The notes beneath the pieces were generated by a model. It worked only from the letters and a program-made list of their open reading frames with translations, was not told the DNA's origin and ran no database searches. Shown one piece after another: positions 2,031-42,319 of a stretch of DNA of 42,319 nt. How positions within the stretch are numbered: the first letter of the stretch is position 1; every line of letters begins with the position of its first letter. The stretch is from positions 1 through 42,319 of the forward strand of contig JAJDWE010000039.1 in NCBI GenBank assembly GCA_022825725.1, read 5' to 3'. Source of the DNA: Gemmatimonadota bacterium. Lineage in GTDB: Bacteria; Gemmatimonadota; Gemmatimonadetes; Palauibacterales; Palauibacteraceae. The position numbers and the translations under genes were made by a program.

Positions 2031-3534
2031 CCGTCCCGGAGGCTCGCAGCGTGCTCATCTTCCGGAAGTAGATGAGCGATCCCAGCGCCATGACGCCGAT
2101 CCAGAGCGGCGTGGAGCGGAAGTACCACGCGGCGACGTCCGAGTTGAGGTCCTTCCACGTGTGCGTCACGAGAAACGTCCCCAGGAGGACGATGCCCGCG
2201 AGGCAGACGCACGTCCGCAGCGTCGGGGCGCGGAGCACGCGGAAGTTCGCGGCGATCCCGGGGTTCCGGCGCGGGAGGACGAGCACGGAGACGCACATGA
2301 TGATGAAGTTGACGAGCATCGACGTGACCATGAGGTCGACGCCGAGGAAGAAGTCCCCCGCCCACTCGCTGCCGAGGATCGCGACCGAGGCCAGCGCGGT
2401 CGACAGCAGAATGGCCGCGTGCGGCGTGCGGAACGCGGGGTGCACGCGGGCGAGGCCGGACGGAAAGATCCCATCTTCGGCCCACGCGAAGACGAGGCGC
2501 GAGACGGAGAGGATCATCGCCGGCAGGTCGTTGATGAGGGCGATCGCGGCACCGGCGACGATGAGGACCGTCCACCACGGCGGGAGCACGTAGCCGAGGA
2601 GTCCCGGAGCGGTGAGGTCCTGTTCCTGCGCCCGCGCCCACACGAACTCCCACGGGACCGTGTGATAGACGGCGGCCGTGAAGAGCAGGTAGTAGGCGCC
2701 CACGATGAAGACCGCGAGGCCGATCGCGAGGGGGAGCGCGCGGTTCGGATTCCGTGCCTCGCCGCCCGCCTGTGCGATCGCGTCGAAGCCGACGAAGCTG
2801 GCGAAGAGGAGGCCGGAGGCGGCGAGAAAGCCGGCCGGGCCCAGCGGTGGAGGCGCGGCGGCCGGCACCTCCACGCCTTCGCTCGCGAGGAGCGCCGCCG
2901 CGAAGTCGCCCTGGTCGAACGAGAATCCGGCCACGATGACGATCGCGCCCAGGGCGAACATGACGACCATGAGCGGCACCACGGTGCGTTCGTAGGCCTT
3001 GAGGCCGCGCAGGTTCACCCACGCGAACGTCCACAGCATCGCGAGCGCCAGCGCCACCCGGACGGAACCCGTGTCCAGCAGGTCGGCCAGCTCCGCCATC
3101 CCCAGCGCGCCCGCGATGTCCCGCAGGAAGGGGACGATGAGATAGGAGACGACCCCGATGACGATGGAGAGGCCGAACCACTGCGAGAAGCTCGCCACGA
3201 AGCCCCAGTACGGACCGAGCGCCCGGCTCGCGAAGACGTAGCTGCCGCCGGCCCGCGGCATGGCGGAGGCGAGGATCGCGTAGGCGAGCCCGGCAAGGAC
3301 GGCCGGTAGCGCGCCGAAGGCGAAGGCCGGGAGCACGTTCTCCGCGATGCCGGGCACGTTCCGCTGGATCATGACGGGAACCACGTTGATCCCGGCCCCC
3401 AGCATCGAGCAGATGCCCGTCGCCGCCAGACCCCACAATCCGAGCTGGCGCGCGAGTCCCGTTCCGCCGGCTTCCGGCGCCCCGGCCCCTCCGTTCGCGG
3501 TCGTCAGACTTCCTCCCCCGCGAGGAACATCCAC
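1993..3534 (-). CDS. APC-family amino acid permease
   Basis: About 505-514 residues with roughly twelve hydrophobic segments. The first membrane segment carries the APC-superfamily signature [18 protein letters not shown], followed by [19 protein letters not shown] and, further on, [22 protein letters not shown], the usual substrate-pathway and loop motifs of amino acid/polyamine/organocation transporters. It should import amino acids or related amines across the inner membrane; specificity cannot be read. No ATG sits near the conserved start. A GTG at 3534 is used here. A CTG at 3507 that overlaps the ppsA stop as CTGA, just behind GGGGGAGGAAG, is a serious alternative. It is the second gene of the ppsA operon. 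Confidence 0.88.
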
Positions 3535-5906
3535 GTCTCGACGGCGGTGTCCGGGTTGAGCGACATGCTCTCGATCCCCTCCTCCACGAGCCAGCGCGCG
3601 AGATCGGGGTAGTCCGACGGTCCCTGCCCGCAGATCCCGATGTACTTGCCCGCCTTCGCGCAGGCGCGGATCGCCATCGAGAGCGTCGCCTTCACCGCGG
3701 CGTCGCGCTCGTCGAAGATGTCGGCGATGAGCCCGGAGTCGCGGTCGAGGCCGAGAGTGAGCTGCGTCATGTCGTTCGACCCGATCGACATCCCGTCGAA
3801 GTGCTCGAGGAACTCGTCCGCGAGCAGGGCGTTCGAGGGAAGCTCGCACATCATGATGAGTTGCAGCCCGTCCTCCCCCCGGGCGAGGCCGTTCTCCGCC
3901 AAGAGGTCGACGACGGCCCGCGCCTCGGCCACGGTGCGGACGAAGGGGACCATCAACCACACATTGTCGAGCCCGATGCTCCGGCGAACGCGCCGCAGCG
4001 CCCGGCATTCGAGTTCGAACGCGGGACCAAAACTCTCCGACACATAGCGGGACGCGCCGCGGAAGCCGAGCATCGGGTTCTCCTCGTTCGGCTCGTAGCG
4101 GCGGCCGCCGATGAGATCCGCGTATTCGTTCGACTTGAAGTCGGACAGCCGCACGATGACGGGCTCGGGGGCGAAGGCCGCGGCGATCGTGGCGACCCCT
4201 TCCGTGAGTTTCTCGACGTAGAACTCGACCGGATCCGCATAACCGGCGTGCTGCACCCGGATTTCCCGCTGGAGTTCGGCCGGCAGCTTCTCGAAGTCGA
4301 GCAGGGCCTGCGGATGGACGCCGATCATGCGGTTGATGATGAACTCGAGCCGGGCGAGGCCCACCCCGTGGTTCGGGATCGAGGCGAAGTCGAACGCGCG
4401 GTCCGGGTTCCCCACGTTGAGCATGATCTTGACCGGGATCCGGGGCATCGCGCCGAGCCGGATCTCTCCCTCCTCGAACTCGAGCAGCCCTTCGTAGACG
4501 TAGCCCGTGTCGCCTTCGGCGCAGGACACCGTGACGTCGCCGGCCTCCTCAAGCTGCGCCGTCGCGTCGCCGCAGCCGACGACCGCCGGGATGCCGAGTT
4601 CGCGCGCGATGATCGCCGCGTGGCAGGTGCGGCCGCCGCGATTCGTGACGATGGCGGCGGACTGCTTCATCATCGGTTCCCAGTCCGGGTCCGTCATGTC
4701 CGTGACGAGCACGTCCCCGCGCCGGAAGCGCGCGATCTCGGACGCGGACTCGATGACGCGCGCCGGGCCGCCTCCGATCCGTCCGCCGATGCTGCGCCCC
4801 TCGGCAAGCACCTGGCCCCGCTCCTTGAGCGTGAAGCGGGAGATCACTCCGCCCGTGCGGCTCTGCACGGTCTCCGGACGCGCCTGCACGATCCGCAGGC
4901 CTCCGTCGACCCCGTCCCGGGCCCACTCGATGTCCATGGGGCGCCCGTAGTGGTCCTCGATCAGGAGCGCCTGACGGGCAAGTTCGTGCACCTCATCGTC
5001 CGTCAGCGAGAAGCGAAGCCGGTCTTCCTCGGGAACCGCGACCGTCTCGACCGACGCGGCGGCGGGACCCGCGTCCGCGCCGTCCCGCGCGTCCGCGTAC
5101 ACGAGCTTGATCGCCTTGCCCCCCAGGTTTCGCCGGAGGATCGCGTGGCGCCCGGCGCGCAGGGCGGGCTTGTAGACGTAGAACTCGTCCGGGTTCACGC
5201 CTCCCTGCACGACCGTCTCCCCGAGACCGTAGGCGCTCGTGATGAACACGACATCGCGGAAGCCCGACTCGGTGTCCAGCGTGAACATCACCCCGCTCGA
5301 CCCCTTGTCCGCGCGGACCATGCGCTGGACGCCGACGGAGAGCGCGACGTCGCGGTGCGCGAACCCGTGGTGGACGCGGTAGGCGATCGCGCGGTCGGTG
5401 AAGAGCGAACCGTAGACCTCGTGGACCGCCGCGAGGACCGCCTCCACGCCCCGGACGTTGAGCAGCGTGTCCTGCTGTCCCGCGAAGGAGGCTTCCGGGA
5501 GATCCTCGGCCGTGGCGGAGGAGCGCACGGCGACGGAAATGTCGCCCGGGGCGTTGCTCCTGGCGCCGAGTTCGCGGTAGGCCGTTTCGATTCGGGCGGC
5601 GAGCCCCGGCGGCAGCGGCGTGTCGGCGATCCAGCTCCGGATCTCGGAGCCCGTGCGGGCGAGCGCGCCCAGATCCTCGACGTCCAGCTCGTCGAGGGTG
5701 GTGTGAATGCGGTCTCCGAGTGCGCCCGAGAGGAAGTCGCGGTACGCCCGGGCCGTGATCGCGAAGCCGCCGGGGACATCCACGCCCGCGGCGGAGAGAT
5801 GGGAGATCATCTCGCCGAGCGATGCGTTCTTCCCTCCGACGGATTCGAGATCGGCGAGTCCGATCGACTCGAATGGCGCGATATACCCGGACACGGCGAC
5901 TCCCAA
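3504..5906 (-). CDS. ppsA: Phosphoenolpyruvate synthase
   Basis: 800 residues, the usual length for PEP synthase, which converts pyruvate, ATP and water to PEP, AMP and phosphate for gluconeogenesis in the cytoplasm. The N-terminal ATP-grasp part opens with [17 protein letters not shown] and contains [20 protein letters not shown]. The swivelling phosphohistidine domain has [21 protein letters not shown] with His429 as the phosphorylated residue. The C-terminal PEP/pyruvate barrel has [17 protein letters not shown] and catalytic Cys759 in [11 protein letters not shown]. The predicted start is TTG at 5906; GTG at 5894 is nearly as good, both near a GGGAGG ribosome site. It heads a leftward operon and is divergent from its regulator ppsR 65 bases away. 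Confidence 0.95.
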
Positions 5907-37764: not shown

Positions 37765-40700
37765 TCAGCGTCGCCAAGCGCCCGGATCCGGGATCCCTCG
37801 GCTGAAGAGCACACGGTGTGCCGGTCCGGCACCGGCGTCTGTGCCCATCGCGGCGGTCGCGGCTCGCCCGCCCGGCCCGTCGCGGAGGAAGCCGGTGACT
37901 TGGCCGGAGGTCCGGTCACGGAGGATGGCCATGGGCAGGTTGTGGTCCGCGTCGAGGGTGATCGATCCGCCGGGTCCCGACAGCGTAATCGAGGCCAGTG
38001 TCCCGGCCCACCCGGGCCGGACGGGCAACGTGAAGGCGAAGTTTGAGCCCCCGTCGCCATCCTCCGCCTGGGGCATTGCGAAGCTCAGGGAAAAGAGAAC
38101 GTCGTCGGCGTGCGACCGCCCGGTGATCCGGTGGTCACCGGTCACTTCGGGCATTGCGGGTGGAGCATCGAGCACAAACGCGGGTTCGAGGAACGGCGCG
38201 GAGAGGGAATCCACCCCACCCCAGATCAGGAGCGATGGTACCGGCCGTGCCGCCGCTAGCGCATTCAGCCGGCCCTCGCTGTGCAGCCGGTAGCGGAGCG
38301 CCTTGTCGAAACTGAAGTCGCTGACCCAGTAGGGCGAACAGTAGGACATCAGGTCCTTGTACTCGCTGGGAGGCACCAGTCGCCCGCCCTCGCTGAAGTC
38401 GTATCCCCAGACCCCGGGCGAGGCGTCGGCGTACGGATACGCCGGGTCCACGCCAGACGGCCTACCGCATGGCGTGTGCTGGAGCGACAGGTTGTGTCCG
38501 AACTCGTGGGCGATAACCGACGAGCTGGCGACAGAGTAGGCGGTTCGCCGTCCGAGATTTCCGATGCCGGCAGCGCCGGAAAACTCTCCCGACAAAGTCC
38601 CATATAGTAGCCGTTCCCACCCTCGATGGCCCGAATCGCTTGGACTTGGCCGATCAGGTTGCTCGCTTCGTTGCTGGAGCTCACGACGGGAGCATGGGCC
38701 GTCACCGTGAGGTCCCCCACGGGAAGAAGCGTTCGCGTGTGCCGGAGCATCGAGTGCCCTGCGGGATCGGCCTCCATGCCGGTTGCGAGTTCAATTACCG
38801 CAGAGTCCGGGTCGGTCTCCCATAGGAAGGGGATGAAGGTGATGTCGAACAGCGGCATCTCGCGTACCTCGATTTCGAGTCTTCCCGTCTCGGGGATCCG
38901 CCGCGCGACCTCCAAATCGGCATCAAGCGTGCCATCCGGGTCGATCTCGATCACCATTTCGAGCCCCGGCTGGACGATCCCGGCGGGGACCGGCGCGTTG
39001 GCCGAACGCGCCAGCGATCCCTCGTCCACCTCGGTCGGGATCGGACCCGGCTTGTCGGGAATGTCCACCGAATGCGCTAGCGACCCGTCGATATAGAAGT
39101 CGGCGCGCACGCGCGGAATGCGCTCCGCGTTGGTGCGCGCCGCCATCGGGAAGACGCGCAGCAAGGCCTCTTCGCCCGCCACCAGCGCGACGGGCAGATC
39201 AAGGGACTGGGCCGCTTGCGTCAGATAGGCCCCGGTGGGCTCGGAATCGCATCGCCGCACCCGCCGGGTGAGCAGCGCGTTCAGCCAGGCCAGCAGTGCC
39301 GCGTCCTGTGGCGCGCACAGCTTTGTGCCCGTGGCGTGGAAGTGGCTCAACTCGCCCAGGTTCGCGAGGCTTGCCGGCAGCGGCCCCGACATCTCCGCAT
39401 TGCCCGTCAGGGCAAGCGACCGCAGCCGCGCGAGATCGCCGAACTCGGGTGGGATGGGTCCCGACAGGCGGTTGCTGCCAAGGAACAACTCGGTCAGGCT
39501 GGCCATTCGGGCCAGCTCCGGCGGGACGGGACCGTCAAGTTCGTTGTAGGAGAGGTTCAGGTATTCGAGCTTGGCGAAGTTCCCGAACGCGGCGGGTATC
39601 GACTCTGAGATTGCGTTGCCGGACAGGTCCAGAATCCACAACTCGGTAAGGTCGGCGAGCCCTGCCGGAAGGGGACCCGACAGTCTGTTGCCTTCAAGGT
39701 GGAGTTGGCGCAGGCCGGAGAGTTCGGCGAGTCGCGCTGGAATCGAACCGGTCAGACCGTTGTCGGCCAAGTCCAAGTGCATCAACTCCGCCAAGTCGGC
39801 CAACTCGTCCGGAATCCCGCCCGAGAGCTTGTTGCCGGAGATATGCAGCTCCCGCAGCCGGGTGAGGTTGCCAAGCTCGGCGGGTATCTTGCCCGATACG
39901 AGTATCCCGGCGAGATCCAAAAACTCCAAGTTGGTGAGTTCCCCCAACTCGGGTGGGATCGGTCCTCGCGAAAGATCGCTGCCCGAAAGCGAGAGCGATG
40001 CCAAAGCGCCGAGACCGACGATGTCGGGCGGGATCGCGCCGACCAGGCCGTTGTGGGACAGGTCCAGCCCGACGACCCGACCCTGAGTGTCGGCGTCGAC
40101 ACCGTGCCACTCGCGCAGCGGGGCATCGGTGAACCAGTTCCCGGTGTCGAACCACCGCTCTCCGCCCATGGCGTCGTAGAGCTTCCGCAGCACCTCTCGA
40201 TCCGCCGTTGGTTCGCAGTCCTCGTCCGTACCCTCGTGCACCTCCAGGGCGTCGAGCCAGCGGCGGATGGACGCCTCCGTCGGCACGCAGAGATCCGTTC
40301 CCGAGTACCGGAACTCTCTGAGCGCCGAGAGGCGCGGCAGCGTGTGCGGGAGGAACCCCGTAAGGCTGGGATTGTCGTCGAGTCGCAACGCCTTCAGAAG
40401 CCCGAGATCGCCCAGATCAAGCGGCAACTCTCCGGACAGCCCGTTGCCGGAGAGGTTGATTCCGGTAACCCGGCCGAGCGAATCTTCCGCAGCGACCCCG
40501 TGCCACCGGCCCAGCACGGGGAATTCGCCCTCGAACCAACCGGTCGAGCGAGTCCAACCGTCACCGCCCATCGCCCGGTACATGGCTTCCAGCACCGCGC
40601 GGTCGTGCGCGTTGCAATAGTCGTCCCCCTTATGCACCTCGATTCCGGCGACCCAGTCCGCGAAGGCCGGTGTCCCCGGCATGCACAGACCCTCGTAGCT

Positions 40701-41627
40701 GTCCCATCCGAAGTATCTCAGCGGCAGCCCGATCAAGGCAGGAGGGACGATTCCGACAAGATCGGTATCGATCAGGTCCAGATGCGTGAGCTTCTTGAGG
40801 TTGCCAAGCTCGTGCGGGATGGACCCGGAGAAGTCGTTCGCCCATAGGGCTAGCTCGGTCAGATTCGTGAGGTCGCCCAGCTCCGGTGGGATGCTGCCCG
40901 TGAGGCCGGTGCCCGCGAGTGCCAGCTCCCTCAGGTTGGACAACTTGCCGAGCTCGGGTGGGATGGGGGCGGGAAGCGGATTCTGACCGGTGTAGTCGTA
41001 GATGGTCAGCCGGGTCAGGCCGGCGAGCTCGCCCAGCTCGGGCGGAAGAAAGCCCGCCAGGTTGTTGTTGGAGAACCGGAGGCCAGTAACTCTTCCTTGG
41101 GCATCGGTTTCCACTCCATGCCACTCCCCTAGCGGCAAGTCGCTCAGCCAGTTGGAGTTGTCGGTCCAGTTGTCGCCATCGGTCGCCCCGTACAGCGCCA
41201 TGAGCGCTTCGCGATCCGCACCCTCGGAGCGCAACTCCACGTGCACCGCGGCCTGTGCATCGACGGAGCCGGAAGTCGCTATCATGTGCGCCGTTCCGTT
41301 TCCCACTGCTGCCACAAGGCCGTTCGCGGCGACCGTGGCAACTTCGGGGTCGGAGCTTGCCCAGTTGACCTCGGCGTCGGCGATGATGTTGCCCACAGCG
41401 TCGTACACCGTCGCCGTGAGCGTGGCCGTATCGCCCAGCGCGGAGAACGTCAGTTCACTCGGGGCGACCTGCACTGATGTTGGGGATAGCCGAGGATCCG
41501 GCGGGTCGGTGGGTGAGGCTGAGTCATCCGCGCATGCCCATATGGCAACGACAGCCAGTAGCGCGGCGCCACGCGTCCGCTTGCGGGAACGCTTCGATCC
41601 AGACAAGCGATAATCATGAACATCCAT
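37765..41627 (-). pseudogene. BIG2/LRR/metzincin protease lipoprotein with frame break at about 38600
   Basis: Reads as one protein of about 1287 residues if a single base is added near 38600. N-terminal lipoprotein leader with Cys32 (AVVAIWAC), one BIG2 domain (about 46-130), then leucine-rich repeats to about 795 in three cassettes, each closed by a Cys-containing cap (LCMPGTPAF, LCVPTEASI, LCAPQDAAL). A beta-rich linker follows, then a zinc protease domain: HEFGHNLSLQH (38476-38508) is the HExxHxxxxxH metzincin site and LMSYC (Met codon 38347) is the Met-turn. The first frame shifts after GGNGYYMG and dies at 38349; the second carries the protease to 37765. A G lost from ATGGGACT would explain it. 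If the break is real the protease domain is not made. Surface adhesion/protease role is inferred. Confidence 0.75.
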
Positions 41628-41806
41628 GTGTCCAACAATAGTCAAGAACGGGATCACCGGCCTCCGCTTGGACCCACCGGATACCGGGTGCCCAGCCGCC
41701 TTCCAAGTTTCCAAGGCGGCAAAGGGAGGGGGCAAGAGAGATTGTGGCAGGTGGTGGAAGGCGAAGCCAGTGGTTGATTCGGGCGCGGCCCTTGACGGAG
41801 GGACCG

Positions 41807-41872: not shown

Positions 41873-42304
41873 GTGACCAAAGCCGACCTTGTGGAGCGGG
41901 TTGCCGACACAGTGCGACCGCGAGTTACCAAGAAGGACTGCGGGTTGGTGGTCGAAGCCTTTCTCGCCTCCGTGCAGGATGCCCTCGTGGGAGGCGACGG
42001 CATCGAAATCCGAGGCTTCGGCACCTTCAAGGTGCGACGCCGCACAGCCCGCACGGCCCGCAACCCCCGGACCGGAGAGCTTGTCGAAGTCCCACCCCGG
42101 ATCGCGCCGGTCTTCCAGCCATCAAGACTCTTCCTCGACCGGATGAATCGCCCGACCGTATCCGCGGAGGAAGCCGAACGGGGAGTGTCAGATTTTCTGT
42201 GTAAATGGCCCTCTCACTCATACGGGCACTCGGCCCTCGAACACGATCGACAGGTGGTTCAGGGCGGCGGTCCAGTCCTGAACGGGCCGGGTCCAGCGCT
42301 GTGA
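41873..42304 (+). CDS. HU/IHF-family DNA-binding protein, 3' end altered by IS insertion
   Basis: GTG start at 41873 behind AGAGGAG. Residues 1-93 are a complete HU fold: TKADLVERVADTV helix, FLASVQDAL, the beta-arm signature GIEIRGFGTFKVRRR, TARNPRTGELVEVPP and closing helix PSRLFLDRMN. HU proteins bend and compact DNA as dimers. A normal protein ends near residue 95-103. Here the frame reads on for 40 residues that are an antisense translation of an IS256-type transposase end, from about nucleotide 42185. The HU core is probably functional; the tail is an artefact of insertion. Confidence 0.85.
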   Translation: MTKADLVERVADTVRPRVTKKDCGLVVEAFLASVQDALVGGDGIEIRGFGTFKVRRRTARTARNPRTGELVEVPPRIAPVFQPSRLFLDRMNRPTVSAEEAERGVSDFLCKWPSHSYGHSALEHDRQVVQGGGPVLNGPGPAL

Positions 42305-42319
42305 GGCCCTGTCGATCGC
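42185..42319 (-). mobile_element. End of an IS256-family insertion sequence (continues beyond window)
   Basis: The segment begins with GTGTCAGATTTTCTGTGTAA, the style of terminal inverted repeat found in IS256-family elements, followed by the 3' end of a transposase gene on the minus strand. The exact outer boundary (42184 or 42185) and the target duplication cannot be fixed because the other end is outside the window. Confidence 0.75.
42218..42319 (-). CDS. IS256-family (mutator-type) transposase, C-terminal end only
   Basis: 33 codons plus stop, open to the right edge. The text AIDRASQRWTRPVQDW continues as TAALNHLSIVFEGRVPV before a TGA. Trp-Thr-Arg-Pro followed by a short spacer and Leu-Asn-x-Leu-x-Ile-x-Phe-Glu-Gly-Arg is the characteristic C-terminus of IS256/mutator DDE transposases. 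The catalytic DDE residues lie outside the window, so activity cannot be judged. Confidence 0.85.
   Translation of the reverse strand, partial: AIDRASQRWTRPVQDWTAALNHLSIVFEGRVPV

Follow-up and report, generated by a model that had tools for sequence, protein, structure and literature searches.

An accessory HU gene has very probably been hit in its last codons by the transposition of a 1.33-kb insertion sequence (IS) of the IS256 family, which lies antisense to that gene. The gene is the last one of the window, by which we mean the whole 42,319-nt stretch of DNA analyzed here, the complete contig C41 of a 3.49-Mb Gemmatimonadota genome in 84 contigs (G000). It starts with GTG at position 41873, with an AGGAG site ahead, and its frame of 143 codons (41873-42304) closes with a TGA codon at 42302-42304, 15 nt short of the contig end. 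The IS begins with the third base of codon 103. The insertion event looks ordinary; it accounts both for the stop of the contig and for the greater length of an HU protein that an annotation would otherwise describe as a tailed HU. The features of the region are as follows.

41873-42181, forward strand: host part of the HU-family gene, codons 1-103 (PF00216 match; 81% identity to G091:C106 over residues 1-101; dN/dS)
42172-42180, no strand: predicted left half of a 9-bp target duplication, AGCCGAACG (9-bp duplications in two of three relatives' copies)
42179-42319, no strand: 141-bp contig-end overlap, a repeat break of the assembly (exact match to G000:C19:1-141)
42181-42205, forward strand: right terminal inverted repeat GGGAGTGTCAGATTTTCTGTGTAAA, read inward (5 of 25 mismatches against the left end GGGAGTGTGCTGATTTCTGTGTAAA in locus L040)
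42181-42319, reverse strand: IS256-family right end, IS positions 1334-1196, antisense to HU and running off the contig (98% identity to the 1334-bp IS of G007)
42182-42304, forward strand: IS-encoded 40-residue tail of the HU frame with its TGA (absent from the HU relatives examined; pLDDT below 50 for residues 106-143)
42218-42319, reverse strand: last 33 codons of the transposase, AIDRASQRWTRPVQDWTAALNHLSIVFEGRVPV, and its stop (100% identity to residues 379-411 of the L040 transposase)

The insertion sequence and its junction with the HU gene

A complete copy of the IS was found in a related genome (G007, contig C4; locus L040, positions 306-1639). This copy spans 1334 bp with a single ORF for a 411-aa transposase, a Transposase_mut protein with a full-length match to PF00872 (4e-119). 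The terminal inverted repeats are of about 25 bp; the two ends of the L040 copy differ at 5 of 25 positions, and the right end in the window is perfect, the 25-mer at 42181-42205 being identical to the right end of the G007 copy. Read antisense, window positions 42221-42319 match the L040 transposase at residues 379-411, with 33 of 33 positions identical. Because the complete copy fixes the boundary and the transposase codons run antisense, the IS starts at 42181, in opposite orientation to HU. These matches bear out the IS256-family identity, the insertion at the 3' end of an HU gene, and the antisense orientation that the initial annotation had proposed. Its further claim, that the frame enters the terminal repeat at about 42185, was right as to the repeat and slightly off as to the position, since the true start of the IS is 42181, within codon 103. 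A 22-mer within the IS end had three matches genome-wide (two exact and one with 2 mismatches, up to 3 being allowed) vs. none for the reversed pattern, which excludes chance.

The 141-bp end was matched in 7 of 100 genomes, the window's own genome included. In a genome from a different family (G099:C38), positions 3-122 of locus L042 hold an IS right end 99% identical to that of the window over 120 bp, and this near-identity suggests either a recent spread or a binning error. Duplications of 9 bp flank two of the three two-ended copies in relatives: the L040 copy has the 9-mer GCGCCAACC on both sides, and a second copy with an internal deletion (L046, 1141 bp) has GGCCGCCGC on both sides. The flanks of the third copy (L043) are unmatched.

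The window's own genome contains five stretches of the IS, none of them complete. Four are junctions at contig edges, with right ends on C41 and C19 and left ends on C38 and C64. They carry four different 9-mers (AGCCGAACG, CGCGGCGCG, TCCGCCTCC, and CCCTGGCCA), which implies at least four insertions, or rearrangements. The fifth stretch (C3:960-1079), which is 88% identical to the IS, looks like a remnant. The contig edges hold only the first 24-25 and the last 33 transposase codons, and a PF00872 profile search of the assembled genome gave no match, as the assembly lacks the IS body; the transposase that the initial annotation expected beyond the window edge is complete in the relative G007. 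At locus L078 (141-667; G000:C64), a copy of the IS appears to be inserted in another gene, which reads as that of an IstB-like ATPase. No other IS end with a matching AGCCGAACG was found among the 84 contigs, and neither TCCGCCTCC nor CCCTGGCCA, which flank the left ends on C38 and C64, matches it. The target duplication of the window's copy thus remains predicted, its partner flank being absent from these contigs. The predicted left-end junction had 0 matches in viral contigs.

These unmatched junctions bear on whether the HU gene was joined to the IS end by an IS-mediated rearrangement, i.e., by recombination between two copies, with a far side unrelated to HU. We consider this unlikely. 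It would agree with the lack of a 9-mer common to any two of the four junctions in the own genome, and one of the three two-ended copies in relatives (L043) shows unmatched flanks as well. However, halves without a match are to be expected if the contigs that flank a repeat are lost or remain unbinned, and another contig of the same genome, C60, starts in the relaxase found downstream of HU in sister loci (see below), which fits an unrearranged neighbor but is no proof of it. The rearrangement also overlaps in part with the insertion, which may have come first, so the likelihoods of the two need not sum to one.

The stop of contig C41 at 42319 is due to its last 141 bp, which it has in common with another contig end, the IS being a repeated element; C19 continues past its 141 bp into unrelated coding sequence. 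Some contigs of relatives are titled k141_, and from these titles it is plausible that the final assembly word length was 141 here too. That the IS part lies inside this overlap, where the contig ends, is what would be seen if the assembly had wrongly extended the HU contig into the IS end of another locus. Nevertheless, such an artefact is very improbable: the junction falls exactly at the IS terminus as known from a complete, independent copy; the sequence in common with C19 starts 2 bases before this terminus, where the flanks part; and the tip of an IS is not where a random misjoin would be expected.

The HU domain and the IS-encoded tail

The Pfam family Bac_DNA_binding (PF00216) covers residues 1-92 of the HU protein (E 1.9e-27; 95.7 bits vs. 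a cut-off of 22.4), that is, the whole HU domain. The domain is intact, in agreement with the earlier reading of an HU fold complete to residue 93, and an alignment of 18 sequences shows a conserved HU core. Pairwise dN/dS values between the window HU and six relatives were 0.11-0.26 over 93 codons, and are rough, as dS was 0.64-1.17; they fit purifying selection on these HU genes before the insertion. The HU gene is adjoined by a divergent gene (38349-41735) for a 1128-aa leucine-rich-repeat protein with a bacterial Ig-like domain. Elsewhere in the window, in this bacterial genome, the protein encoded at 30202-31251 matches deoxyhypusine synthase (PF01916, 4.8e-37).

The 40 antisense residues described in the initial annotation correspond to residues 104-143 and end at the IS-encoded TGA. 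Three frames can enter the IS end, and the frame used gives the longest run, with 40 residues vs. 7 and 32 for the others. The nearest relative HU (G091:C106) ends at residue 104, and the alignment of the DNA ends of the two genes places the insertion about 7 nt before the native stop; about 1-5 native C-terminal residues would have been displaced. An AlphaFold2 model, built with an alignment of 18 sequences, had pLDDT values of 81-96 by ten-residue block for residues 1-90 and below 50 for residues 106-143; the model as a whole is moderate, because its mean pLDDT is 69.4 and its pTM 0.44.

The comparison of HU C-termini suggested with the first reading gave no relative with this tail among 121 distinct sequences from the fetched loci, the window's included. 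Their lengths range from 87 to 143 aa with a median of 101, the 87-aa sequence being cut at its start. The window HU is the longest, the next ones have 129 aa with unrelated ends, and the HU genes of the four sister loci described below encode 104, 105, 105, and 108 aa. A native tail, i.e., an HU subfamily with a disordered C-terminal extension, was rejected on these lengths and has next to no chance of being correct: natural tails do occur in some HU relatives, which reach 129 aa in total, but the sequences of these tails are unrelated to that of the window, several being rich in Pro/Gly; the nearest HU genes all lack the window's tail, and the IS end also adjoins non-HU sequence (C19, C3, G003, and G007).

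With the insertion as the preferred reading, the gene most likely continues to encode an HU that folds and has a disordered tail, or it represents a tolerated hit in a non-essential copy, and the product is likely to be harmless or mildly altered. A tailed nucleoid protein or a change in HU expression, the two consequences named in the initial annotation, would be possible outcomes. Very probably, a 1.33-kb IS256-family IS, present at several sites in the genome, transposed into the last HU codons in opposite orientation, and 40 residues from an antisense reading of the IS end would take the place of about 1-5 dispensable C-terminal residues. The HU domain would be left untouched, the IS would supply the new stop, and the relaxase gene of a mobilizable element would lie just beyond the IS, as the four sister loci suggest. 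It is possible that the insertion is present in only part of the population.

The accessory HU and the relaxase genes of its sister loci

Three PF00216 matches were found in the genome, namely the window HU, C43:3444, and C69:35298. The C43 protein is 62% identical to the window HU, and that of C69 is a more distant paralog. The window HU is an accessory copy, and another HU (C43) remains; the initial annotation did not note this, nor the relaxase gene next to the sister genes. At least 14 of the 16 other genomes of the genus have a match at 60-63% identity to the window HU, like C43, and at least 6 of the 16 (G002, G003, G007, G009, G010, and G013) have one at 70-75%. Among the matches listed, the window kind of HU is thus patchy. 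Among the 80 best loci, HU relatives were found mostly in Gemmatimonadota MAGs; a search of viral contigs with the HU protein gave one weak relative only, with 43% identity over residues 1-69. In a midpoint-rooted FastTree tree of 107 sequences, with proteins cut at 110 residues and without rows below 58% identity, matches not starting at residue 1, and duplicates, the window HU groups with the sister loci L113, L070, L114, and L056 (support 0.957; inner nodes 0.57-0.90).

Each of the four sister loci has a relaxase gene directly downstream of HU and convergent with it, at distances of 16 nt (L113), 504 nt (L114), 21 nt (L070), and 505 nt (L056). The relaxase is of the MobA/VirD2 type (PF03432; 4.5e-07 in G091). 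In L113 (VXNP01000035.1), the convergent HU-relaxase pair consists of the genes at 3001-3315 and 3335-4885, and in G091 an N6/N4 DNA methylase gene is found on the other side of HU. Given this arrangement in four of four sister loci, the window HU probably belongs to a mobilizable element.

In the window's own genome, contig C60 opens with the first 28 relaxase codons, which read off the contig edge; the other relaxase trace is a degenerate piece with a stop on C11. C60 is collinear with G091:C106 (90% over 1.2 kb) and with G003:C63 (two segments, of 1.4 kb at 87% and of 8 kb at 85%, separated by a divergent stretch), and the relaxase follows in both. At that place, G003 has no HU, but a fragment of the window's IS. 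From this collinearity, it is plausible that C60 is the neighbor of C41 across the IS.

The IS fragment of G003 (L057, positions 3651-3853 of this C63 locus) is a 185-bp right-end piece (3659-3843) whose end is 7 bases away from the stop codon of the relaxase. On the outside it is flanked by 9 bp that repeat its own tip (GGGAGTGTC), which would be consistent with an insertion into the end of another copy. A family of proteins of about 240-290 aa is encoded beside IS ends and relaxase remnants (L041, 311-1183; L057, 1179-3341; L062, 14-898; L076, 8233-8955); its members stand in tandem in G003, and the sole member scanned (L041) had no Pfam match.

With the G091 relaxase as the sole query, relaxase matches were obtained in 6 of 49 fetched HU-bearing loci and 5 of 81 tree loci, two contigs being in both, which gives nine distinct ones. 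Outside the four sisters, the relaxase is separated from HU by kilobases or sits on its other side (L079, L081, L084, L115, and L143), and most of the wider HU relatives had no relaxase match within the DNA searched, often a flank of only 3 kb. We tentatively raise the possibility, which we regard as rather doubtful, that the HU proteins of this small, element-borne clade, encoded convergently with a MobA/VirD2-type relaxase, serve a mobilizable element as a dedicated component of its relaxosome. If this were true, the IS-encoded tail would alter or abolish mobilization, not nucleoid structure. A by-product of the analysis is a testable pairing of accessory HU and relaxase genes in Gemmatimonadota-related MAGs.

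Comparison with known systems

Members of the IS256 family are about 1.3-1.5 kb long with one transposase ORF, whose product has a DDE catalytic triad, and generate target duplications of 8-9 bp. The element described here resembles them in its 411-aa Transposase_mut, its length of 1334 bp, its imperfect terminal repeats, and the 9-bp duplications of the relatives' copies, whereas the window shows one end only. The best eight plasmid matches listed are annotated as IS256 family or ISXax1-like, with 57.5-59.3% identity over at least 97% of the transposase. Among the 5000 plasmid matches listed, 27 have a place at 60-80%, and the rest are below 60%. At that distance, as judged from the sequence, the window element is one of its own, with ordinary anatomy. 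The available part of PMC3942029 treats the IS256 family as a well-described, Mutator-type group (p-MULT 1). Among the literature matches listed, titles and abstract beginnings did not mention an IS256-family insertion in an HU gene, in a search whose wording was not specific and for which "HU" is unsearchable alone. The finding is new only as one more case of IS256-family transposition, here into an accessory HU gene.

The window HU is like other members of the HU family (PF00216) in having the full domain at residues 1-92, and unlike them in the 40-residue IS-encoded tail of its frame and as an accessory copy besides C43 and C69. Integrative conjugative elements of the Acidithiobacillia carry accessory HU genes, and one of these elements is listed with a relaxase-mobilization nuclease in its context, according to the accessible portion of PMC10561277. 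The probable location of the window HU on a mobile element would resemble those cases; what sets the four sister loci reported here apart from the description in that portion (PMC10561277) is the direct convergence of the HU and relaxase genes.
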